A stretch of DNA of 64,000 nt from Agaricus subrufescens. Lineage: Eukaryota; Basidiomycota; Agaricomycetes; Agaricales; Agaricaceae. The notes beneath the pieces were generated by a model. The model did no database searches, was not told where the DNA came from, and saw nothing but the letters and a program-made list of their open reading frames with translations. Positions 11,033 through 60,700 of this stretch are shown here, in pieces (position 1 is the stretch's first letter; each line of letters starts with the position of its first letter). The translations under genes and the position numbers were made by a program. Location of the stretch: contig CM057057.1 in NCBI GenBank assembly GCA_029945375.1, positions 4,402,001 to 4,466,000 of the forward strand, in the 5' to 3' direction.

Positions 11033-11323
11033 TGGTAATAGAGACTGTATCGCAAAAAATGTGGGACGAAGAAGTTGGGGTGGACGTCAAAAAGAAAGAG
11101 AAGGAAGCAGTTTTGCGTTACTAGACCTCCCCAGCATCTACGTGACACAAAAGGCGTGACTCATATCACTTGTCACGCGATAAGTTGATTAGGCTTATGT
11201 AAGCGGCTTGCAATTACTTGCACCAGACGATCAGGAATGGGTAAAGTGGATTGAAATTATAGTGATGATGCATCTACTCTACAGAACTGTTTGATTGGAA
11301 AAAATAGACGGGACAACATCGCC

Positions 11324-14300
11324 TTATGAATCATCTTCGAAAGGGTACTAAAGAATCCGGCATCAATATAATAAGCCTTCTGGAAAAGCAAGTTACTCAC
11401 TTCAAACGAGGTGGGACACTCGGTCTCCGGTGCATTCTCATCCAAAGAAATGTGGGGGCCTGTAGGGCCAGGCTGTGAGGTAACCACATTACCATTCGGA
11501 ACGCCCGAAGTAGCGGCTGGAGCAGCGGGCACTGGAGGTGGCTCGAATTCAATAAATTCTGCTTCTGCATCGGGCCTGAGATCCGTCAATAATATAATCC
11601 CTCCACCACCTGCATATTTTTCTGCTGAAGGGGCTTTGTTACCGGCCTTCACACCAGGTATGGAAGCAGCACCTCTGGGAGTCGACGAGACAGGCCGTAC
11701 AGGTTGATAACGACTGCTAGTCGGGAACGATATGTAGTCCAACTGTGCAGGCGTTACACGTGAGAAGTTTGGTCTGAATTCTTGAACTGGTTCGCTTTTT
11801 TTCTTGTTAGAAGTAGGTGGCGTAGCCGGGACTTTGGGTTCATCAATCAAGTTGGACAGTGATCGATTGATGGGAGAAACGTCGCCATCCCTTGGTGACG
11901 CGGCATCTTCAGCCTTCATCTCGACATCATTTTCAACAGCCTTGGCTTCTTGCTTATCATCCTGGCTCAATTTAGCAACAAAGCGATGGCATCAAAAGGT
12001 TGACTTACGAGTTCCATAGCCTCGCCTTCAGCAGCAGCTTTCTTCTTTTCCCTAGCTTTCGCTCTTGCTGTTGTCGACAGTACTGCCGTAGCAGCCTTTG
12101 TGATCGTTTCCTTCTTAGGTGGCTTCGTTGATGCAGGATACGCGAATAAGCTTGGCTTAGCATTTGAGATGTACTCAAACTTGGGTGCCTGTGATATCGG
12201 AAGTTGTGGTCAGATAGTCTTCGACCAGCAGGTAAACAGACATTACCTTCAGGTCTCCATTTAGACCGATAATACCCGTCGGGGTGAAGGACAGACATGC
12301 AGAAAGCGCCAAAGGATACCAATACCAGAACTGGCAGAACAGAACCATACCAACAATAGCACTGGTGTTTGAGCTACCGGCTCGGCTCTGCAAGCTGATA
12401 GTGACATTACGACCCCCAGCGTCAATGAAACCTTGGCCGATCGCAGCGCCAAAGCGTGCCATGGGATCTTCGTGTTTGTCACTGATTATCTTCTGGTATC
12501 GATTGCGAGTCGTTGTGAAAGACGGCGATGAGACCTCAGACTGTTCAACAAGGATCATACCAAGAGCAATGAATGCGCCTTGGCGAACGAAATCGACACT
12601 GTCTCTTGTCATCGGTTCCAGAATTTCTACGGCATCTTGGAGACCTGTTCCCGCACAAGCAATACCCAAGGCGAGGGTGGCGCCACATCGAACGTGAGCA
12701 TTATAACTCTCGCTCAACAGCTGGACTATCCTTGGCACTTGGCCAGGATTTTTGAATAGCAAGAATGCTAGAGATGTAACTGCTGCACGTCTGACATCGT
12801 CGGACACATCAGATACAGCAATATGTAACAGTTGGCGGACTGCATTGTTGTTGGAGGTACCAGCGTAGGCCAGGGCAAGAGTGTAGACGCCTCCATATCT
12901 GAGAATAGGATCCTAACAAAACACTTAATATCAATGACGCAGTTCACTCCGAGAAAATTCACCTTTTCGGCCAACAAAGTCTTGATGATGCTGTCCGCTT
13001 CCTCCTGACGCCCATAGTAAACGAAGGCAATGCCCATGGCAAGACCGCGAATGATTTTCTCGTGCTGCGTCTCGTGAGCATATTGTAACATCTCATCAAC
13101 GGGATCCGTGGCAGCAGTGCCCAACATGACGAGGCCCATTCCATATCCGGATGCCTCGCCGGCCACAGCTGAATCGTTAAACAAGACGCGTTTTAGGTCT
13201 TCAAAAGCTTCCAGACTCTTCGAGCCCATGCCAGCCACACCCAAGCCAAGGGCTGCACCATGTTGAACGACTTCGTTGTTAGAATCCCGGAGAGTCTGGC
13301 GGAGATAGTTCGTTACATCGCTCCCGCACCCTGCGTTGATGAGACCAAGAGCGTACAGAGCGCCACCCTCAGAGTAGCTAGCACCCTGAATGTTACTCTC
13401 GTTGTTTGTAGGCAGATAGGGAGTAAGTATAGTCAAACCCTGCTCGAAATAGCCTTTGTGGATGACACCCAGACCCGCTGTTGCGGAAAACTTAGACCAA
13501 TTATTGGCCAGTCCGAGCCACTCTAAGTTCTCGCGAAGGAAGACGTCTGACGTCGTTCCAGCATGCATAAAGGCGTTTTGGAGGGTCAAAGCAACGTGGT
13601 ATACCGACGAACGGGGGTCGAGAGCGTCCTGAAAGATCAGAGTAAGTATATTTATATATAGACAACAAAGAGCTTAAGATTGAGCTTACCTTTGAACCTT
13701 TGAGAATGAGAAGATCGGTCTGATTATTTCGTTTGAGGAATTCAAGATATAGTTTCACGGATTCCTTCCCGCTTAAAATAGCACGAAGTTTGTCATAGAC
13801 TTCTTTTGTTTTCTAGACAATCATAGTTAGAAAATCATCCCAGAGCATCTCATGAGGGAGGGAGGGAGGAAACATACCAAATCACCCTCCGGTAGCTCGG
13901 TACGAATACTCTCTAGATAATCCTGAGAACCTCCTTCTACCAAATCGAAAGCCAACTGATACGCCAGAAGCTCTTCTTTTTCCACCAGCGAGGATAGAAG
14001 AGGAACCGTTAAAGACACATCGCTCAAGGCTACAAGCAGCCTCGTTAGCGCGTGGACGTGCGCAGAGCCTTCACCGACGGTTAATTGAGGGAACAGAGGG
14101 AACAAAAACCTCAGAACGTGATCGCGGTACGAAAGAGAGAAGCCGGTATCCAAAGCAGCTTCCATTGCGTAGGCGAGTAGGGAGACATCATTTGTCTGTT
14201 TGTAAATTGCGGAAACGATGTCCAATCTGCGAGATTCGAGCGCGATACCAATAGCCTAAAATTGTAACCATAAAATATTGTTTCTGATTTTATAATGAGG

Positions 14301-14930
14301 CAACCTACTTGCTTGAACTCGCCCTCAGAAATACATCGTTTGAAGATGCCTTCAATAATCAACTGCAGGCGCGAGTCTATCTTTTCCTTACTTGACCCAG
14401 ATTGTTCCTCAGACCGGAGCTGAATATATCGGTCAATTGCCTTGGCTAAGCTAAAGTTAGCGTACGCTTCTAGGACGAAGTCGGTGAGATAAAACGCACA
14501 GACAATAGTTTCGACATATTCCTCAGATCCAGGCATACGAGACTCTTCATTGAATGTATTTCCAGCCCCAAGAGCAAATGAGAGGGCATCATCGTATTCC
14601 CCAAGGTAGTAGTAGACTTTACTAGCCAATAACGCTGCTTGGTCGCGAGCATCCTTTGGAAGGTCGTCACCTTCATAAAGGGATTCACTGTGATTTAGAA
14701 TATAAATATTTGGTGGGCAATGAATGAAAGGGTCAGAATACGGACATCAGCGCGATATGGTCAGATATCTCGGCCCAGAACTGGGGAACGAGGGGATTGA
14801 GAGCTTTGAGGGCATGGCGCTTGAAGACAATGTCGGGTTCTTGTAGCAGGGCGAGAACGCCACCAGCAGAGGATTGCTGTCGAACCATGGATTGGGGAGG
14901 AGAGAAATGATCAATTAACACTTCGAGCAT
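11324..14930 (-). CDS. RPN2: 26S proteasome regulatory subunit RPN2 (PSMD1)
   Basis: Largest scaffold subunit of the proteasome base; holds Rpn13 and contacts the ATPase ring. Ten exons: 14930-14746, 14687-14500, 14445-14309, 14255-13878, 13812-13690, 13628-12963, 12912-12247, 12188-12009, 11961-11401, 11347-11324, giving about 1035 residues. N-terminal helices (VLALLQEPDIVFKRHALKAL) lead into proteasome/cyclosome repeats such as GAALGLGVAGMGS, YGGVYTLALAYAGT and GATLALGIACAGT, then KFEYISNAKPSLFAYP and the acidic C-terminus YPFEDDS, the expected Rpn13-binding type tail. The first ATG (14930) is used here; the in-frame ATG at 14888 (MVRQQSSAGG) fits the family start equally well. The first intron has an unusual GTCCGT donor. 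It is divergent from COX13, with 111 bp between start codons. Confidence 0.95.
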
Positions 14931-22314: not shown

Positions 22315-24488
22315 TTATAGAGAACCGAGAGGCTGGAGCTCGAGGTCCGCGGGGTCCGTTGGCACAGTCAGGATACGGAGCGTGTTGGTGTGACCGAGAC
22401 CACCTTTCCAGCCCTGAATTGCGATGATACTCACGCCAGGTTGGATGATTCCGAGCGCCAGGCCGTTGCGAAGGCCAAACCGAATGCGGTTGTCAACATC
22501 AGTCTGCCATTGATGGGTCTGGACACCTCTGGGTTCAGGATACCAGAATGGATAACAACCGCGGTGCAAGTGGATTTGTCTCGCAGTCTGTTCATTACGG
22601 GTCACTACGTTCCAGATGTTTCATATATCTTTCTGCGAAGTAAAATCCTGAAAACCTACCAGTGATGATCGGAATCTTGGGGCGATACTTGGAAACAAGA
22701 GCAGCGGTCTGCCCACTTGTTGATAGAACAAGTAGTGCTTTGGCGTCCTGTTCAGCCGCAGCCGCAACAGCTGCGATAGCGACAGTCTCTGCAGTTTCTG
22801 TCGGCCGGACCTGTACAGCACGGAGGTCGTCGTACAGAGGCGGGTAGCAAATAGCAGATTCCGCAAGCAAGCAAGTCTCCGCCATCATAAGAACTGAAGT
22901 TTCATTAGAAGGGATCATATCTTCGGTTAACATACATACCAGATTGGATGGGATATGCTCCTTTAGCAGTCTCTCCCGACAACATGACGCAATCGGCACC
23001 ATCGAGGACAGCATTTGCAACGTCACTGACTTCCGCACGAGTAGGGCGAGGGTTGTACTATACTCCATGAGGCCACATATACCAATGATAGGTGGATTTG
23101 CTTACTGTCATCGATTCCAGCATCTGGGTGGCCACAATCACAGGCTTCCCAACAATGTTGCACTTCGCGATCATCATCTTTTGAGCAAGGAACACCTGGC
23201 TGGCTGGAATTTCAATCCCTAGATCACCACGAGCCACCATGACACCGTCGGTCTCCTTTAAGATTTCATCAAAGTTTGCGACACCCTGCTCGTTTTCAAT
23301 TTTGACGATGATCTTGATGTTTGCACCATCGGGGCCGAGAACCTCACGGATTTGTCTAACATCTTCACCATGGCGGATAAAGGACGCAAATATCATATCA
23401 ACCCCATTGCGGACTCCGAACTGAAGGTCAGCCTTGTCTTTCTCAGAAAGGGCTGGAAGGTCGACCTCCGTTTTGGGCAGATTGACACCCTTGTGAGACG
23501 AGATAGTTCCATTATTGAGCGCACGAACGCGGAGGTTCATGCCATCAATAGAGAGAATAAGAAGTGATAGAATGCCTGGAAAACATTGAGGAAATGGGTA
23601 ATTACCGGTTGAATCAAATGCTCACCATCGTCAACGTAAATCAGTTTGCCAGGCGCTGTGACTTTCGGAAGATTGGCCTATGCAATTTGAGTATCTATAA
23701 TGACGTTCGGAAAAAGCTTCACTCACGTAGTCGACAAACATAACCTGATTGTCGGATATCCCCGTGTACTTGGTATCCGTAGAAACGATAAACTCATCGC
23801 CTGCCTTGATGGGATACTGAGGAAGACATGAGCGGGAGATATGATTAAATTCGATTACAACATACGTCATTGCCATCCCTGGTTTTGCCGGTACGAATTT
23901 CGGGACCTTTCTATTGGAATCTCGCATATCAGAGGGTTGTTAACGGAAGATAAGAAATCGCTTACGGTATCCAAAGCGATAGCCACGGGACGCCCGTGTG
24001 GGTCGTCTGGAGTGAAAATACACAAACGCTAAGCGAACCGGTATGCAAGGGAAAAATGAAATTCACTTTTGATCATTTGCCTAGTGTTGTCAATAACACT
24101 TTGATGGTACTCATAGGAGCCGTGCGAGAAATTCATACGGACTAGAGCAAGACATGAGTTGAACGAGGAAAGGTGGGTCTGATTATGAAGTGAACACAGA
24201 CCGATGTTTACACCAGCGCGGCGAAGCTCAGAAAGTTTTTCGACGTTGTTAACCTTGGGGCCTACAGGAGATGAACGGGCGCGTCGTTGAAAAAGAGCGC
24301 ATGAACGCACCAATCGTCGCGATGATAGCCGTCTATCAGATTGTTCAGTGGAGAGCAGAAAATTGTATCTCGATAGATGGACTGACCTTGCGAAGATACT
24401 TAGTGGCCTCAGTCGAGACAACGGCTTCAGAGACGTTGAGAGTGGTGTTCCACTCGATCTGAGAACGGATACCATCAACGGGATACAT
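22315..24488 (-). CDS. PYK1: pyruvate kinase
   Basis: Last step of glycolysis: phosphoenolpyruvate plus ADP to pyruvate plus ATP, in the cytosol. Twelve exons: 24488-24387, 24332-24311, 24261-24202, 24141-24067, 24006-23966, 23910-23866, 23816-23727, 23677-23626, 23575-23106, 23057-22940, 22893-22660, 22604-22315, giving 532 residues. Visible motifs: [63 protein letters not shown] (active-site loop), [35 protein letters not shown]. Exon 2 is only 22 nt. The 5' half is split into many short exons while exon 9 carries most of the barrel. All catalytic residues look intact. Confidence 0.97.
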
Positions 24489-24541
24489 GATAGTGGATGG
24501 AGTGGATGGGGGTAGGGATGTGGAACTGGAATAGAGGAATC

Positions 24542-26574: not shown

Positions 26575-29305
<2,731 letters not shown>

Positions 29306-29920
29306 GATTAGGAATGGGTAAAGGACTCGAGGGCCGAACGGGGTGCAAGTCTTTGAAGTCACGTAGCTCGTGTACTCATTAACGCGTCAACAACCACAAT
29401 GAGACACAAATCGATACAAGCAGACACTAAGCTGCATTTTACTCTGTCAATCTCAGAGAAATCTGCGTTTTCTGGAATGTGCAACCCCTAGAGTAAGGGA
29501 CTCCAGTCTCCGAATCACCCACGCGCCACCCGAGTTCCATAAGTACTGTTCGTTGCCACTTTCATGTCTTCTAATACACCTTAAGTATTTCCCTCACGCA
29601 AGATCAGCTGGCGGAATAGGTCACATTGCCATCGGATACAAACCGGGTCACTAGTAAATGGAGCAAATTATGAGAGTGGAAAAGTCCTACAGAAAGATGG
29701 AGCATATCAATCCTAGGATAGTCCGGAGATGGTATCATGCCCAAGTGAAGAATACATGTCATAAAGTAAATATAAAGAAAGTCGACGTTTGTCGAGCCAT
29801 CAACCAGTTCGGCTCATTCATACATTTCGTTGATGATACCTAAGACCAAAGAAACAGCCATAAGAAACCGTAATTCGAAACCTGCAAAAATAATTTACAA
29901 ACCTACTTCCACTTCGCTCA
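29306..29920. other. intergenic, MCM3 promoter / repeat-protein 3' side
   Basis: About 615 bases containing the MCM3 upstream region (with an ACGCGT element at 29380-29385, the core of the MluI cell-cycle box that controls G1/S genes in yeasts) and the 3' side of the repeat-protein gene. No supportable coding sequence. Confidence 0.4.
29380..29385. promoter_or_regulatory. MluI cell-cycle box-like site upstream of MCM3
   Basis: The palindrome ACGCGT lies 75-80 bp upstream of the MCM3 start codon. In yeasts this core is bound by MBF (Mbp1/Swi6) and drives G1/S transcription of replication genes, including MCM genes. Whether MBF acts here is inferred from the position and target class only; a six-base match can arise by chance. 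Confidence 0.4.
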
Positions 29921-30351
29921 CTAATCTACGTTTTCAACCGCTTCATTTTGGGTGCGTCTCCAATCCACGTTCCCGCGGACACCGACCTGGTATCCCTGTG
30001 GCTCTACGTAGGCGTCGGTATCAGACCGCCTCCAGTCAACGTTACCGCGAGCTTCGGCTTCTGACCGCCTCGGATTCCGCTTGCCGCGTTCATCGACTTC
30101 TCGTTGCCAATTGTTATTACTACTGCCTCTTCGCCAGTCAACGTTGCCTCTTCCATTCCCTCTTCTCCAGTCAACATTTCCCCTCCGCCAGTCAACGTTG
30201 CCGGCATGTGTGGGGTCAGGAACAGCTTCAGCGACCTTGAGAGGGACAACTCAGCTAATGATCGAATGCATGACACTTAGAATAGCTGACGTACCGGGAA
30301 AGCGGACACCGAAGCGGCAACAAATAAAGACAGTAAGACAGCAAGGCGCAT
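29921..30351 (-). CDS. small secreted repeat protein, GNVDWRR repeats (putative Kex2-processed peptide precursor)
   Basis: No known family recognised. Exon 1 is 30351-30295 and exon 2 is 30235-29921 (59-nt intron, GTACGT donor, CAAG acceptor), giving 123 residues. Residues 1-18 form a strong signal peptide (MRLAVLLSLFVAASVSA). The mature part carries five exact copies of GNVDWRR at residues 31-37, 38-44, 49-55, 83-89 and 107-113, and ends in a partial copy (ENVD). Every copy ends in Arg-Arg, a Kex2-type site; four are also preceded by Arg. The spacers contain further basic sites (GKR, PRR) and EA dipeptides (SEAEAR). The copies use different Arg, Asn and Asp codons, so the peptide rather than the DNA is conserved. 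This matches the plan of kexin-processed repeat proteins (yeast alpha-factor, fungal KEPs). No maturation genes (UstY/DUF3328) lie nearby. The acceptor choice is the weakest point of the model. Confidence 0.72.
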
Positions 30352-39004: not shown

Positions 39005-40634
39005 ATGGTTTTCTGCGCAATTTCTGGCGAGCCTCCCCAGGACCCTGTCGTCTCTGTCAAGTCTGGCCATGTCTACGAGCGCAGACTCATCACAAAATAC
39101 ATCACCGAAAACGGCACAGACCCCATCACCGGCGACAAGCTCGAGGAGTCCGACCTCATAGAACTCAAGGCTTGTCAGTGCCCTTCTCCTCTTTCCGGTT
39201 TATAGCATGCTTACACGTTTAAACAGCTCCCAAAACAGCGCCACCTCGTCCACCCACCCACACCTCCATTCCCGCCCTCCTGCACACCTTGCAAAACGAA
39301 TACGACGCTATTGTCCTTGAGATTTTCTCTACGAGGCAAAAATACAACTCCCTCCGTCAAGAGTTGAGCTATTCCTTGTATGCCCAAGATGCAGCAACCC
39401 GCGTCGTTGCGCGACTAATCCGCGAGCGTGATGCCGCCCGAGAGTCAGTCATAATTTTTTCTTTTGTTGACATTGAACAGTGCACTGATATTACTCACTA
39501 ATCAGGGCGCTGACCAACGTTCAAGCATCAATGGGAATTACACCTTCTGCTGGTGCAGAAAATGGCGACGTTGACATGGTAGAAGGCGAGAGTACGGAGG
39601 GTCTCCCGGCCCCCGTTGTCGCCAAAATCGACGAAACTCATGCTTCTTTGTCTGCCGCTCGCAAGAAGCGCAAACCCCCAACTGGATATGCTACTGCTGC
39701 CGACGTCAAGTCCTATGCCGCCAAGCACACCATCCCATCCCTTCATTCTGCCTCTCCGGCCGGTATCACCTCTCTCGCGGTTTCTCGTCTAAATCCCTCG
39801 CAGTTCCTCACTGGTGGTAATGACAAGATTGTTCAATTCTACGACCGGAGTACAGACAAGGTCCTTGCTTCCCTCAAAGGCCACAGCAAGAAGATCAACC
39901 ATGTCGCGCTTCGTGAACGTGAGGGCGAGCAGACGCTACTCCTCTCTGCTGGTGCGGATAAAATTGCCAAAATTTGGTCCCAGGACACCGCGTCTGGAGA
40001 GTACATCGCCAATTATACTCTCAGAACTCACAAGGGTGAAATATCCGGTCTAGCTGTCCATCCAACTTCGACACTCGCGATTTACTCTTCCCTGGACAAG
40101 ACTTACTCTGTTCACGATTTAACCACTTTCTCCCAGGTCTTCCGCTCAGCACCATCGGAAGAGGCATTCACCTCTCTTGCCGTTCATCCGGATGGCACTC
40201 TCATAGCTATCGGTACACCAGCCTCTACCATTCAAATCTACGATATCCGCACTTGTGCAATCGCTGCCACACTTACTCCGAGCGAGGGTGCACCTTTCAC
40301 TGTCAACACTCTCGCCTTTTCCGAGAACGGATATCACATGCTTGCCCCCGATTCACTCTCGTCGGTGTCCATATGGGACTTGCGCAAGACAAGGAGTACA
40401 CACAGTATTCCTCTCGGTGACGACTTTAAAGTGACCAATGTTACCTATGACCACAGCGCACAATTCTTAGGTGTGGCGGGTAATAATGGCGCAAGGGTCT
40501 TTGCGCACAAGTCTTGGGATGAATTGGTGCGTGTGGAAGAAGGTAGTAGTATCTCTGAGCTTGCATTCGGTGAGCAAGGCAAGGAAATCTGGACTGCAAC
40601 CGGAAGGGAGATCAGAATTTGGGGGTCTGAATAG
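39005..40634 (+). CDS. PRP19: pre-mRNA-processing factor 19, U-box E3 ligase
   Basis: Core subunit of the NineTeen complex, with ubiquitin-ligase and scaffold roles in the activated spliceosome and in DNA repair. Exons 39005-39173, 39227-39443 and 39506-40634 give 504 residues. The U-box fills residues 1-70 (MVFCAISGEPPQDPVVS, GHVYERRLITKYI, DPITGDKLEESDLIELK). It is followed by the Prp19 coiled-coil region (HTLQNEYDAIVLEIFSTRQ, LYAQDAATRVVARLIRERDA) for tetramer formation. The C-terminal WD40 propeller has SRLNPSQFLTGGNDKIVQFY, LKGHSKKINHVAL, GEISGLAVHPTSTLAIYSS and ends REIRIWGSE. Start, length and domain order agree with the family. Confidence 0.97.
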
Positions 40635-41049: not shown

Positions 41050-43810
41050 CTATGACCATGAACTAGGTCCAACAGTCGAGCCGGGCGGAATCGCCTTAAA
41101 CGGGATTCCAGCAGCATCAGCGGTTTTCTGCCAGACACTAAAGAAAAGAAGATTGTCAGAACACCATATCTAAGTGATTGTACGAAGAAAAACACTCACG
41201 TGTTACCCCACCAGTCAAGCTGGATACCGCCCTTCGGAAGTCCCAACGCGAAGAACATTAGAAGGACAGCGAACGCCACGCCAGAATCCAGAGCAGCAGA
41301 CAAGATATAATTATATCTCATCCACCACCTGAAGTGGTACTTCCTGATCACATAATTGAAGAGCAAGCCGACAAGCGTCCACGAGATATAGTTGATGCCG
41401 GATGCGGGTGGTATAGCGCCAAGGCCAGCGAAGAAAATCGGGATGTTGACGTAACGCCAGAAGGAAAGTGGGAAGCGGCGGGCCAGTAAGTAGAATGGGA
41501 TGGGTAGGAAGGCACCGATGATGAAGAAGTAGAGGAGGGAGTCGTACTGTGCGCCGGGGCTGAACATCCTTCGGGGACCAATAGCACCCCAAATTAATGA
41601 GGAAGTAGCGAAGGTATTGGTTCCTGGGCAGATAAAGCCGGCCTTTTGTTTAGGAGAACACAAGTCCTCGATATTTTCGAGCATCCAATCTTGCACCGCC
41701 GTAACGACGAAACAGCTTATGCCAGCAGCCACCAGTTGGATAGTGAACATGGTGCGAGGGGGAATCTTCATGTAATGGCCGAGCTTTAGATCACCAACAA
41801 AACCGATAGCTTGATGAGTACTAATGAAGGCGACTGTCTTGAAAAGAACGTTCGCAATTGGACGGCCAGGAAGAATGTACCCTCCAACAAGTTCGTGGAA
41901 GACTTGGGAGGACACTTGTTGATTGGTAATGGCCATGAGCATAGCCAAGGGGATTGCGAGAACAGCACCGATGATGACTCCGACCAGAACAGCCCATGCG
42001 GGCATCTGTGTTGGGAAGACTTCGACGCCAACGCACAAGAGGACGAATGTTATGACACCGACGACACCGTACCACCACAATGGAACTTCGGGGTATGCCA
42101 ACATGAGACGAGAATGGATGTCACGTTCATCTCTGAGGGTGTTCTTGAAACGCTTCACGATATCTTTGCGGAACCAGAGGAAGGTGTGCACAAAGACGGC
42201 AGGAAGCGAAGCGAAAGCGGCGGCATAGGCCATCGCCAAAGTGGTGGACACGAATATAGGGGAGTATTTCGAATACAATTCGGGGTCGAAGATACCATCT
42301 TTGACAACAGCCAGCGGGTTGTAGGGAGCACCAGTGTTGTCCCAAGATCTGAATGAGGAGATAGGGAAAAAGGCGCAGTCGAAGGTATTGGTGACTGTAA
42401 AAAGTGTTATGAGTTATTGAACTTTGGTAAGATCCGTATGCCGACGTACAATACCAGATTGGACAGATGATCCAGAAACAGATTATGAAAGCAATACCCG
42501 TGTTCAGCTCAGACCACCACTAGGAAACAAAAGTTAGAACTTTGGATTAAACCACAACGTAGAAAGAAAACGTACAGGTGTAACGAGGGGATTACCGAAA
42601 AAGGCAATCATACTCCAGTCAAAAGTCAGGATGCTCATTCCCAAACCACTGTTGACACCAAACAACGCGTTCACGACAGGATTGTTTGGGACAATCCAGC
42701 AAATCCAGCTGAACATACTCAGGCCGGTGAAAAGATATCCAGGAATCCAATAGTAGGCAAAGCTTGCTATGAACGCAAAAAGGAAGAAGCGTTCACGGCT
42801 TATGTGGCCAGAATCGGATTGACCGTAATTCTTGTGCAACGTATTGAAAAGAGCTGAGTTGACCAATGCTCCGGGCCATATCATGCTCGACGGCCAGACG
42901 ACAAATTGGCGAAGGAAACCGGCAAATGAATAGCCTATAAGTTGCGAGGAGAGGATAATCATGATCGAATATCCGAAGGTGACCTGCTGTCCGTAGAAGA
43001 CGCGTTGAGTGAGAACTATATCAGTCGCGTAGGCACCGCCGAAAACGACGTTTCCCATGACAGTGATGCAGACATGTTCCTTGATGTTGAAAGGACCGGG
43101 ATTCAACGACCACTTGTAACCAAAAGTGTTGAACCGTGTAGTTGGTAGGATGCGTTCGAGTAGTTTGCCGAAAGGAAGAGACACCAACTGAATTACAATG
43201 CCGGTGATGAAGACAGTTGGATCTGAATCGTGATGTTATTTTAAGAAACCAGTGCGATGTTTGGTAGGCTTACAGCGCAAAGATAAAATCTGGTTTGCTC
43301 CTGAGATGAAAATTGTTACAAAAAGACCAATGAACCACCTTGATATTTGATTAGTCCGGAACTCGAGTGAGGAAACAAAAGAAGACAAACATTCGGAAAG
43401 TGTTCACCGGCATGGATGGATCATCAATGCTGGAGACAGATGCACGAACTTCAGGATATGGTGATTCGCTGACATTGATTGAGCATAGCATATAAAACTG
43501 AAAGTGCGAGAACTTACTCATCAAACTCAATAGCTGTGGAATTTCTGGATCCTGGTCTCTCTGAGTCAAAACGGGAATCCGTATCGTAATCAGAGTGTCT
43601 GTCATAAGCGTAAATCTTCTTGGCTTGCGCATCCGTTGCCACCGAAAATGTAGAGGAAGGATACGATTTTGTGAGGTCAAGATTGGGGTCGTTAAGATGC
43701 TCCATGAGGAAGTCAACGTCCTCTGGTACGTCTGGTAGTCGCCTGCTGCGGGGAGCCATCATTTCGATGGGCTCAACCGGGCTAGGGAAGCTATGTTTCT
43801 GTTCCTCCAT
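41050..43810 (-). CDS. OPT-family oligopeptide transporter
   Basis: Proton-coupled uptake of small peptides, glutathione or metal chelates across the plasma membrane. Seven exons: 43810-43518, 43468-43391, 43338-43274, 43222-42576, 42519-42450, 42394-41200, 41137-41050, giving 811 residues. It has a soluble acidic N-terminus (PEDVDFLMEHLNDPNLDLTK), then 12-16 hydrophobic segments. Family signatures are present: SLNPGPFNIKEH, DWSMIAFFGNPLVTP, the HYMKIPPRTMF motif, and LGLPKGGIQLDWWGN near the end. These match the OPT (not YSL) clade of fungi. Substrate cannot be deduced. It diverges from the TauD-like gene across 874 bp. Confidence 0.93.
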
Positions 43811-53359: not shown

Positions 53360-56300
53360 TCATTGATTGTAAACCTCTTCGGCTTCGATACAGGCGTCCA
53401 AAAGGCAGGCGTAATTTTCTGCTGCGGTTGCTTGGCTGAGGCGCTCCGATACGGCTTTTGCGATTGTGGATTGCCTGGATAAAGGAGGGTTATAAGTTAC
53501 GCATACATGGGTCCTCCAATATGTTCGCTTACTCTACAGGTCCATAGCCGACAGTAAGATCAGATGTCAGAAGACTGACGGACATGGGCCATTTGGAAAA
53601 GACGTCGGGGGTAAAGTTGAAGGTCACAAAGACTTTAGCTTTCTTTGATGGGATCATTACTTTGGCCTTCACTTTAAATCCGGGCATGCCGTCCACATCT
53701 ATGGGTAGGAACTCGATCGGATATTTGATGGAAACTAGCCTGAGCTGCGCGCGTAGTTGAGAGCAACATGACCAATATCCGCACAGCATTTGCAGAATCT
53801 GATGCGTAGTTAATATGGAACTCATGGAAAAAGCATGGGAACGGACCATTTTGCATGATTTAGGATTTGAGCGATGTACCAACATTTTCGCCGCTTGAAG
53901 AGTAATGTTGGTGAATTGAGGGAAGTCATCTCTGGATGCTATCGCATCAGCGACAGGACTTATCTCCACGTTTGAAGTTAGAGGAAGATAGCGGTTGCAA
54001 GGTATTGAGACTTTGTATTGAGAGGCATAGATATATTCGAATAGACTTTCGTCAACTCGCGTAACACGGAATCGATGGAAGTTTTCAAGGGCCTCGAGTT
54101 CACCTATGTGTAACCTGAGTTTTGTCTGATGGGGAACAATAGAAGCACAAACCTCGCAGTCTGAAAACCTCTGTGCGTGTGCTATTCTCCTTCAGTTCAA
54201 GGAAATGTTGCGCTTTGGCATAGGCATCCGCCTCTTCCTGTTTGCTAACGGTAATCTCTTGCAGTCGACCCCGTAGGTAATTAAGTTGCTCAGTTTGCTC
54301 TGATAACTCTGCACGCAACGCTACCACTTCAAAGCTGAGCCCACTGTCAGTACAATGACGCCATAGCATAGTAAATGCTCACTTTTGTTCCGCGATAGAA
54401 TCCTTCAAATCATTGAGATAGTTCTGATCGCTAGCCTCGATTTCCGCTACTTCCGCTTGCTCGTGCTCGAGTTCCTGCAAAAGTTCATCGTACTCCTTCT
54501 CCAACGCCGACACAAGTTCTTCACCAGACTTCATAAGGGGTTCCAAGCTTTTGGCATCCTAAAAAATCAGTCAAGGGGCGTCTGGTATAAAGCATAAACC
54601 GGCTCACAGACTGAAGATCCTTGAATGTTTGCTCTGCGGTTTCGTATAGTCCCTCTATCCATTTGAGCTTCCAATCGTACCAGTCAGATTTTGCTTGGCC
54701 TCTGGCATTAGTCCGAATGAAGTTCAATTGGTGCTATACGCAACGGTCAAATGAGCAACCATACCCAGAATTTATAGATCGCACGCACCAGCAGCTCAGC
54801 TTGACCCTCTTCATCTGCACGCATATATTCAACAAACAACTCCGGAGTGACCTTTGCAGCCTCCTCCTCAGCCTGGGCAAAGTCGGCTTTACTCCTAGCC
54901 ATCCAACCTTCCAGATCTTTTGAAACTTTCGTAAACAAACTTAATTGAGGAACATCGATCCCCATCGCGGGATAATATTCCGAGAGGGGAATATCTGCTG
55001 GGTTGCGAGATGTACGAGAGCCGGAGTGGGGATAAACAGAGCGTCGGGGAGTTGTCAGTTCATCCATAAATTTAATGCCAGTCATTGAAAAGAATTGCTC
55101 AATAGATATCGAGGGCTAATAATAATACCTTGTCAGGTTCGAGTCATCAACACGAAAAGAAGGCTCACGAAATCTTCCGCAGGCGGAGTCTGCGGCGGTT
55201 CAGCACCTGATTTACTCGTGGTCTCTGGGAGGTCGTTCCCTTCCTCCCTATCACCAGTCGTAGGCGGCGTCCACCCAAGAGGTATTGTCGCAGGTTTCGA
55301 TGAGACATCAGGGACCGGGACGGACGCAGCATCAGGATCATTTATAGGTGGCGACACCGGTTCTTGCCTGGCCTCGTCGAGCTGAGATTCTTCAGCTGGT
55401 AGCACTATTTTGGGCACTGCGGGGGCGGGAACATTTCTATCAAAACTCGCCGAGTCCGCTGGCTGCACGGATCCCAAACTAAGACGTCCTCGATGAGAAG
55501 TTTCTTGATGAGAGGAAGGCGTAGGAGTCAGACTTCTGCCACGACCATCTGTTGGTACAGACAAAACATTCCCAAGGCTCTTTCTTTGTGCAAAATAGCC
55601 GGATTGTCGTTTTGGGGGTGCAGGTAATGCGTTTGTGTTTTTTCGGGAGTTATTCTTTCCAGGAGATGGAGCTGTTCTTTTGTTTGGTGAGGGAGCTACA
55701 GTCGACCCAGGTCCGAGACTTCGTCGTTTGGCTGGACTCGAGCGCGCAGAATCAGGGGCACCATCCTGCATGACGGAGAAGCGTCGTTTATTGGTTGAGC
55801 CATTCACTGGAGTTGATGGAGCGGATAGTTTTTTGGGGGAGGGTTTCGTCACTGGAGGAGCAAATGCAGCAGAAAACGAGGGTTTAGGCTTGGGTTTGAC
55901 AGGCGAGATGGGTCTAGCCGGCGACTTTGGAGGTTGAGTCGCCGCGGAATTTGGGGCTGACGAAGGAGGAACGAGTTTGAATACCGGAGATCTTGGGAGT
56001 TGCTCTGTTCCAGTTGCCACAGTCGTTAAAGGAGGATTCAAAAATTGTTGACGGAAGTTAGTTTCATTTGTCAGAGGCTGGAATACCGGAGGCCTCGGTG
56101 CCTCAACACGTTCAGATTCAGGTGTTTCCGGGAAATCAGGTAAATCATCGGGTAACTCAGGCGTAAGCTTGTCGTTCTGTATTGGCGGAGCAGTTGATTG
56201 TCGCGGGGTCGACGAAGACAGGGGTACAATAGATCCATAGACTCCTGATTCGTCCATCATCGAGTCCTGAAAGCCAAGACTAATCCCAGAGATTCTGCCA

Positions 56301-57777: not shown

Positions 57778-60700
57778 ATGGCTAATACGACTACCGGAAA
57801 GGTTACACGAGCGTCCGTGCGCAGTAAGGCTGGAGCTACTATACCACCTGCTTCTGCTCCAACCAAGATCACACGAACAGCGAGCAAGCCCCCATCGGGG
57901 ACCTCGTCCGTACCCGCGGCGACAAAACGTACCACGGCTACGAGGAAACCGCTCAGCAGCCGCGATAACTCGATCAACTCCTTAGATAATGCCTCTAAGC
58001 CGAAATCGAAGCCAGTCTCGACACGCAGGCCTGCGAAAGCCGAGGTCATGCCAATTCCGGATCGTGAACCTATCATGGTACAGTGTTCGCACTTCCCATG
58101 GAAGATCGTTATTCACAAGTATTGTGTAGGCTTATCTTCGAATTCGACCACATCGTGGTGATGAGGCGATGACTTCCACGCCTTACTTGACTCCCCTTTC
58201 TGATACAACTGTTGAAATGACGGAACCTCAGGACAACGCGACGTCTAATAAAGCCTGGTTCCGCACCTCTGCAATTGCTGGATCCTCCCTCTATACTTTT
58301 TCTCACATCTTTCGGCCAGAAACGACACAATCAGACTTTTTCACAAAGACCACACTCCCCCTCGTCCAAGACGCCCTTCAAGGGCAAAATGGACTATTAT
58401 TCACATATGGCGTTACCAACTCTGGTAAAACGTATACTGTTCAGGGAGGCAATACACCAGGCTCGGCTGGAATAATACCGAGGACCCTCGACGTAATCTT
58501 TAATAGCATTGATGGGCTGCAAGGTGACGGTAAAGTGAGCGCAGCATATCTGACACTGTCATCAGAGTGTTTACTTTTTGAGCAATAGTATCGCCCCGTA
58601 CGTCTATATGGCATTGAGCCATCTGACTCAAACGACACGAACCTTCCTCGACCTTCCACCGAACCTGGCCTCGCTGAAGTTATCGGCCAGTTGGACTCGG
58701 ACACCAGTACCGAAGTCGACTCGGGTATTGATTCAACGGTCGTCAAAGTGGACCGAAACTATGAATACACCGTCTGGATTTCTTATGTTGAAGTCTACAA
58801 TGAAAAGGTATACGACTTGCTTGACTCAATCAAAGATGATACTAGCCGGAAACCCACTTCACTATCGCCCACAGACCCAAAGCTGCTTTTGACCCGAAAA
58901 GCACTTTCTCTCCGACCCTCTCCCGCCTCTGATAATGAGGAAGCCGAATTTCACGGTAAATATATCGCTGGGCTTCGTCAGTTCCGTGTTACAAGTGCAG
59001 CCCAAGCCAAGTCAATCGTAAAGCTTGGTCAACTACATCGTCGAGTGTTTGGAACCTTAGCCAACCACCAAAGCAGCCGAAGTCACGGGATGGTGATCAT
59101 CAAAATTGTTAGAGGACATAAAGGAGAGAGAAATGTAAGTGGGCCTGATAGTACGAGGCTATAAGTTATTGAACAATCGTTACAGGATCCAAGTTCCCTT
59201 CAAGTATCGCGTCTCACACTTGTTGACCTCGCGGGCTCAGAACGTACAAAACACACACATACTACAGGCGAACGACTGAAAGAGGCTGGCAATATCAATA
59301 AATCATTAATGGTCCTGGGCCAATGTATGGAAGTGATGCGCTCAAATCAGAAGAAACTTGCCTCTAGTCTGGCGCTTGAGGGTTTTGGTAAAGAGGGTCG
59401 AATGGACACTCGAGATGTCCGTAAAGCGTTACCTGTCATCCCGTTCCGCCATAGCAAACTTACAGAGTGTCTCATGGACTATTTCTGTGGAGAAGGTCGG
59501 GCGGTAGGTTAAGTTCCTTTTCCATGACGAATTGCTCAAATGTTCTTTTTTATAGGTCATGATTGTGAATGTCAATCCATATGATACAGGCTACGACGAA
59601 AACTCTCATGTGATGAAGTTTTCTGCTCTGGCAAGAGAAGTATATATAGCAAATGCCCCCGCCCCAGTGCAAAAAGTGCCCTCAACAGGTCCAGGGAAAT
59701 CCCTCGTGCAGAAGATCAAAGAAATGAATCCTGTGGCAGGCAAAGGTTCAGATGTCAGCCTTAATCCGTTCCGACGAAAGGTTACTATTACAATGGGAAA
59801 GAAGAATGAGGCCGTATTAGAGGTACTAGAAGGTACTTACATCAGTCATCTGCTTGAACACCTTATTTATAATCCTACCAGAGGATGAATCTAAAGAAGA
59901 GATGGATGACAATGATGAGCCTCTCGACCCCCTTATTGACGCCCTATTCGACGAGGTAGAAAGCCTCAGAATGCAGGTAAGTCATATACGAGATGGATGT
60001 GCGGCTACATTGGCTTATATTACCACCTAGCTATTTGATGCGGAAATGAGATGTGCAATCATAGAAGCAGAGACGCGCGAGGAAGTTATGCGAGAGATGG
60101 AAGAACGTATGAGGACGATGGAGGAGAAATACTCGCGTCGCCTCATGAGCCAGGTAAAAAAAAAGAAAGTCTCAGTTTATTGAATGTCAGACTGACCCTA
60201 TACCCTACAGCTGGAACAGAACGAGCTTAAGACTGATGCAAAAATTGATTTGTTACATAAAGCGGGTTTGTTTGGTAGCCCGATGAAACTGCCGCGACAT
60301 TCCATACCAACTTTTTCGGATGAGGAGGAAGATGAGGAGGCAGCAGACGTCGAGATGAGCCTGGTACGTTCTCAGCTCCGCATAGTTTTATTGCCTCCGT
60401 CTTATCGATCATCTGCAGCTTGAGGATGATGAAAGGTATGAGGATGAAGAAATGTCCCTCGCATCTCCGCTAGCTGGAAGACCTTTTATCAAACATAGCC
60501 CATTAAAAAACGAGAGCAGGTATTCCAAGGTAGCGAACTATCCTGAGCAGGATGACGCCGCTATGAGCGATTTGACGGAGACTGAGACTGAAAAAGAAAC
60601 TGAAACGCTTGGGGTCATTGAAGACGAGACAGAAGACGAAGACGAAGACGACTACGTAGATGATGGTGGTGACGATGACTATGAAGATGAAGACTATGAA

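Follow-up and report, generated by a model that had tools for sequence, protein, structure and literature searches.

The window analyzed here, a 64,000-nt stretch of the 44.65-Mb, 44-contig genome of Agaricus subrufescens, carries on its minus strand a two-exon gene that very probably encodes a KEX2-processed repeat protein (KEP) of the basidiomycete “-DW” kind. The gene extends from an ATG at 30351 to a TAG at 29921, and its 372-nt coding sequence yields a precursor of 123 amino acids that is laid out as MRLAVLLSLFVAASVSA, then FPVAEAVPDPTHA, five GNVDWRR units with spacers, and a terminal ENVD. Features of the gene are given below in window coordinates, as read from the sequence; P0001 to P0009 denote similar proteins that are described further on.

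30295..30351, minus strand: exon 1, encoding the putative signal peptide plus FP
30301..30351, minus strand: putative signal peptide MRLAVLLSLFVAASVSA, assigned by eye; P0001, P0004, P0008, and P0009 have similar N-termini
30236..30294, minus strand: intron of 59 bp, GTACGT...CTCAAG; P0001 and P0002 imply the same junction
29921..30235, minus strand: exon 2, encoding all repeats and ending in the TAG stop
30203..30300, minus strand: pro-region FPVAEAVPDPTHA, split by the intron, with five in-register X-Pro/X-Ala dipeptides that form a putative DPAP/Ste13-like ladder
30182..30202, minus strand: GNVDWRR copy 1, residues 31–37
30161..30181, minus strand: GNVDWRR copy 2, residues 38–44
30128..30148, minus strand: GNVDWRR copy 3, residues 49–55, preceded by a single Arg
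30047..30064, minus strand: spacer SEAEAR, residues 77–82, identical in P0001
30026..30046, minus strand: GNVDWRR copy 4, residues 83–89, preceded by a single Arg
29954..29974, minus strand: GNVDWRR copy 5, residues 107–113, preceded by a single Arg
29924..29935, minus strand: terminal ENVD, which in P0001 is matched in the alignment by one more GNSDW copy

The gene model with an intron at 30294–30236, as proposed in the original prediction, holds: the intron has GT...AG borders, and its removal leaves an open frame of 123 residues. Without splicing, the first frame ends at a TAA, the intron's sixth codon. P0001 seemingly reads through the intron and P0002 seemingly starts inside it, and the two join the window protein at one and the same residue, a comparison made at the level of the proteins. 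The frame stop and the shared junction thus back the 59-bp intron indirectly. The N-terminus looks signal-like by eye, with M-R followed by LAVLLSLFVAASV and S-V-S-A.

The five exact GNVDWRR copies at residues 31, 38, 49, 83, and 107 are found where they had been predicted, as are the Arg codon pairs listed for them and the ENVD remnant with which the protein ends. The units are not due to chance: when the mature part was shuffled 20,000 times, a 7-mer occurred twice in one shuffle, and none was repeated in the other 19,999. Between the five copies, 8 of the 21 nucleotide columns vary, which takes at least 11 changes, and every one of these is silent, in keeping with the earlier suggestion that the peptide is under selection. 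Silent sites make up about 21% of all sites, and the naive probability of a divergence that is exclusively silent is 4e-8 if the changes are treated as independent. Such divergence fits old duplications that selection on the peptide would have preserved, more than it fits a recent expansion.

These data also bear on the idea that the gene is decaying or nonfunctional, an old KEP whose open frame has survived by chance. The last copy is reduced to the ENVD remnant, which has neither the Trp nor a cut site, and NNNWQR and NPRR may represent units that have degenerated. However, five copies are perfect and differ silently only, the frame is open and has plausible splice sites, and similar proteins exist elsewhere, and we regard decay as very improbable.

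The original prediction called for a search for GNVDWRR-like repeats in other Agaricomycetes, and this search was successful. A collection of 5.8 billion proteins was searched with E limits set to 1, 10, and 10, which yielded one, five, and nine matches, respectively; the nine-match result was obtained by scoring the 7,989 candidates that shared most words, so there are at least nine similar proteins, the weakest of which is P0009 (E = 0.049). Relatives are few, and several are short or seemingly incomplete. The two from named species, Pluteus cervinus (P0004) and Pholiota molesta (P0008), both belong to the Agaricales. GNxDW or GSxDW cores occur in P0001–P0004, P0008, and P0009, and other xxxDW cores in P0005–P0007. 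P0001, a metagenome protein, has GNSDWRR and NPDWRR units, the identical SEAEAR spacer, and a retained VDERG; P0003 is a fragment closely resembling its end, and since these two look closely related, counts over the relatives are not independent. P0002 carries ten GNSDW cores with RR or KR. The cores of P0005–P0007 include GPDW, ASADW, ATVDW, ATFDW, and AADW, among others, and P0005 has both ADW and VDW endings. P0008 has GSSDW, TEDW, TTDW, and ATDW; P0009 has GSKDW plus a single GNSDW. The Pluteus protein (BDN72DRAFT_890582, annotated as a hypothetical protein) resembles the window protein in its signal-like start, its pro-region, and its four GNSDW cores followed by RR or KR, and differs in being 75 residues long, in having tandem units without spacers, and in having Ser for Val. 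A spacer of the SE(x)EAR type (SEAEAR, SENEAR, or SEDVEAR) recurs between cores in the window protein, P0001, P0005, P0007, and P0008, and may itself be a released peptide.

Outside these proteins, a two-sequence alignment query of viral contigs gave 11 pattern-matching stretches and a query of prokaryote genomes with P0001 gave 292 stretches, with no relative among them, as expected of a fungal gene. No Pfam family was found at E ≤ 1 in the precursor or in the three of its nine relatives that were scanned (P0002, P0004, and P0008). Within the genome, searches for paralogs with the window protein, P0001, and P0005 led to this locus alone, P0005 reaching it with E values of just 5 and 8; since exons are read singly in such a search, the counts are lower bounds, and diverged paralogs could escape. 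The degenerate pattern N-x-D-W-R-R-G occurs at three sites genome-wide, all of them at this locus (reversed control, 0), and a Lentinula-type repeat query, run with no positive control, had no match.

The cores are closely tied to candidate kexin sites. The window protein has seven dibasic sites, and RR follows each of its five identical cores. There are 49 DW motifs in the window protein and its relatives: RR comes next in 35 and KR in 7, and different residues or the protein end in the other 7. For the 28 GNxDW cores, the following pair is RR in 22, KR in 5, and ER in 1, and the preceding residue is Arg in 24 (single or closing a dibasic pair), Ala in 3, and Leu in 1. An exchange of RR for KR behind the core is what a kexin site would allow. 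The core is thus retained in relatives that swap RR for KR.

A single Arg preceded by Gly, Ala, or Val is not a canonical cleavage site of Kex2, which speaks against cutting at such positions. When processing of nine proteins was simulated with dibasic and single-Arg cuts followed by Kex1 and DPAP trimming, 31 of the 42 DW-ended products were pentapeptides, namely GNVDW, GNSDW, DGPDW, TGPDW, ASADW, ATVDW, ATFDW, GSSDW, and PTEDW. With dibasic cuts alone, the simulation gave 14 pentapeptides among 41 DW-ended products, and for the window protein the number fell to one of five, versus four of five with single-Arg cuts. The pentapeptide reading therefore depends on cutting at single Arg residues, which has been observed in a Pichia yeast host (PMC9769878).

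Products left by dibasic cuts alone are relevant to a different view, in which the precursor would function uncut or as such long pieces, for example as a surface or cell-wall repeat protein like Rep1 of Ustilago. The peptides that Kex2 processing yields from the Rep1 precursor become attached to hyphae (PMC6339444), and dibasic-only digestion of the window protein does leave long pieces, such as SDTDAYVEPQGYQVGVRGNVDW. However, spacers differ among the relatives while the core and its cut sites stay, the SEAEAR spacer kept in P0001 being the exception, and the core is just five residues long. We consider a function of this kind decidedly unlikely and favor release of the short core.

A further element of the precursor lies upstream of the first copy. 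The pro-region can be read as a ladder of dipeptides with Ala or Pro in second place: FP-VA-EA-VP-DP in the window protein, LP-VA-EP-AP-VA in the Pluteus protein, and IA-EP-AA-VA in P0002. When the window protein is taken together with the eight relatives that have a pro-region (all but P0003), and with stretch ends chosen by hand, Ala or Pro occupies 34 of 46 second places versus 12 of 51 first places. For the first eight mature residues, Ala/Pro was distributed in as one-sided a manner in none of 100,000 permutations, and the same was true of a set of six members that are less closely related. With the first ten mature residues of the window protein alone, 785 of 100,000 permutations were as one-sided. 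These permutations start from a guessed signal cleavage site and involve members that share ancestry, and the resulting numbers are not strict probabilities. The ladder ends exactly at a pentapeptide in P0002, P0005, P0006, and P0007, leaves THAGNVDW in the window protein and GEDL in the Pluteus protein, and stops short of the core in P0001 (where it breaks after one dipeptide), P0008, and P0009.

SEAEAR had been likened to the EAEA spacers that are trimmed by Ste13. Counted from the preceding RR, this spacer reads SE-AE-AR, without any in-register X-Ala or X-Pro dipeptide, and it was rejected as a Ste13 spacer because of its register. Among the seven post-dibasic fragments of the window protein, an X-Ala/X-Pro start is found in NP only. 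The putative Ste13-like element is the pro-region ladder FP-VA-EA-VP-DP instead of SEAEAR.

Candidates for the processing enzymes are present in the genome. A kexin P-domain is found on contig C4 (C4:1204855), with an upstream exon on the same strand whose best PDB match is Kexin. By eye, this kexin locus (C4:1201000-1208500) seemingly adjoins an MCM-like open frame (locus positions 1576–2268); an MCM-like neighbor is found at the precursor gene as well, which is probably a coincidence. For one carboxypeptidase exon on contig C2, chosen by eye from 10 loci out of 44 exon-level S10 matches, KEX1 was the only PDB match (E = 1.8e-5). Some serine carboxypeptidase loci come in pairs with equal or nearly equal scores (C8:184k/390k, C1:1618k/C2:621k, and C1:2196k/C2:4355k), and these may reflect segments duplicated recently or parts of a second haplotype that were left in the assembly. 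A DPP-IV-family peptidase locus lies on contig C5, which does not imply identity with Ste13 itself. A Kex2/Kex1-type precursor, as originally proposed, remains the best reading in view of the core kept in relatives, the RR/KR swap, and these candidate enzymes.

The definition of KEPs goes back to Le Marquer et al. in 2019 (PMC6339444), and a survey by Umemura followed in 2020 (PMC7329392). The window protein has five identical cores, each followed by RR, where the definition asks for at least three repeats between KR, RR, or KK sites. The identical core of five residues is shorter than the repeat units of at least eight residues set in the Umemura survey (PMC7329392), a limit that we take to be a search setting and not a trait of the class; fragments of two or more residues were accepted in the Le Marquer survey (PMC6339444). 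The latter describes a conserved XSDW motif in Basidiomycota, in one ectomycorrhizal fungus and in saprotrophs (PMC6339444). Like those proteins, the window protein is a repeat precursor, putatively secreted, with a -DW core; unlike them, it has Val in place of Ser, and so ends its core in V-D-W, whereas relatives built on the same plan carry GNSDW, with S-D-W.

Released peptides of this kind have been detected by LC–MS/MS. Vogt et al. (2022) found SGTGEASAADW from Lentinula edodes KEP 2599 and MSGVAADW and SGVAADW from Pleurotus KEPs 1091723/1439342, and the -AADW end shared by these fruiting-body peptides was noted (PMC9769878); the -AADW peptides are also cited by a review. These are likewise Trp-ended -DW peptides from Kex2-type precursors, with products that were measured there and are predicted here, but they are longer, at 7 to 11 residues. 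In the Pleurotus precursors, Ste13 dipeptides come directly behind dibasic sites; the dipeptides of the window protein are in its pro-region. In the same study, six kep deletions in Coprinopsis gave no phenotype and the synthetic peptides tested were not antibacterial (PMC9769878). Since the XSDW motif and the -AADW peptides are published, the gene is a new member of an already described class, whose -DW ending, too, is already in print. In the literature searched, the only papers matching GNVDW itself are by title on Vibrio, and searches with DWRR, DWKR, and longer forms gave no fungal-peptide title among the matches listed.

With a putative signal peptide, repeats, candidate Kex2 sites, and a ladder of X-Ala/X-Pro dipeptides, the precursor is similar to those of alpha-factor, which could point to a mating signal perceived by a Ste2-type receptor; similar basidiomycete KEPs have been noted (PMC6339444). 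Several observations speak against this. No match to STE2 (PF02116) was found in the genome, a weak test as its controls were silent, and dipeptides do not follow the internal Kex2 sites, NP being the sole exception. Known alpha pheromones exceed five residues in length. In basidiomycetes, the mating pheromones belong to the prenylated a-type (PMC9769878). An alpha-pheromone-like role is thus very unlikely. The precursor is not one of the classical basidiomycete lipopeptide pheromones either, as had been predicted from the lack of a CaaX motif: it ends in ENVD and has no Cys, which excludes that class.

It had also been suggested that GNVDW is a RiPP core or is cyclized, meaning that the released peptide would be modified, as in dikaritins, by UstYa-type (DUF3328) enzymes. 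The plan of the precursor is the same as that of dikaritin precursors, and DUF3328 genes lie near 22% of surveyed KEP genes (PMC7329392). No match to PF11807 was found genome-wide, in a scan with silent controls and in which introns can hide genes, and no DUF3328/UstYa domain was found in the 30 Pfam-scanned open reading frames of the window; weak as this test is, the core moreover has no Tyr, unlike the cores of ustiloxin type (EDYXI; PMC6339444). We found no support for the suggestion and consider it highly improbable; a linear peptide is preferred.

The window has 115 stop-to-stop open reading frames of at least 110 residues, of which 30 were scanned against Pfam, with a family at E = 0.001 in 22 of the 30. 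The following genes were recognized by their Pfam matches.

11260-14746: RPN2
22598-24541: pyruvate kinase
26610-29386: MCM helicase subunit, directly downstream of the precursor gene
39489-40631: Prp19-like WD40 protein, with a score under the curated cutoff of the model
41199-43235, minus strand: OPT oligopeptide transporter
53532-54191: Knl1
58589-59161: kinesin

The OPT gene is the best of 26 exon-level OPT matches in the genome (about seven loci in our own grouping); it lies 11 kb from the precursor gene, with other genes in between, and was noticed after the fact. Elsewhere in the genome, Peroxidase_2 (peroxygenase type) gave 70 exon-level matches that are partly clustered, notably on contigs C3 and C4, and the one such locus tested matches solved aromatic peroxygenases (best PDB match 2yor).

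Taken as a processing model, the signal peptide would take the precursor into the secretory pathway, where kexin would cut after RR and probably also after the single Arg in front of the later cores. Kex1 would then remove the basic residues from the core ends, and a Ste13-like dipeptidyl aminopeptidase would strip the X-Ala/X-Pro pro-region. Linear GNVDW would thereby be set free in several copies, and N-terminally extended forms, for instance SEAEARGNVDW, may accompany it. From what has been published on related peptides, we guess that the most likely site of action of GNVDW is extracellular, where it would serve in signaling between hyphae or in encounters with other organisms.

Qsp1 of Cryptococcus neoformans offers an analogy at the level of description: it too is a secreted basidiomycete peptide made from a propeptide, although Pqp1 is the protease that matures it and Opt1 imports it before it acts (PMC7537855). 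That import and the position of the strongest OPT match could point to oligopeptide uptake, for which the OPT neighbor is only a lead. Extending the analogy, the -DW KEPs of Agaricales might form one family that yields a linear xxxDW pentapeptide, released by a dibasic cut behind the core, a single-Arg cut in front of it, and the X-Ala/X-Pro ladder for the first copy; this pentapeptide could be a conserved mushroom signal imported by OPT transporters, a proposal that we consider unlikely as a whole.

KEPs occur widely among mushrooms. From this locus and its relatives, a minimal product that lends itself to testing can be named, GNVDW/GNSDW, together with a concrete model for its processing. 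With a five-residue core that falls below the eight-residue limit of one KEP survey (PMC7329392), similar genes may be undercounted.
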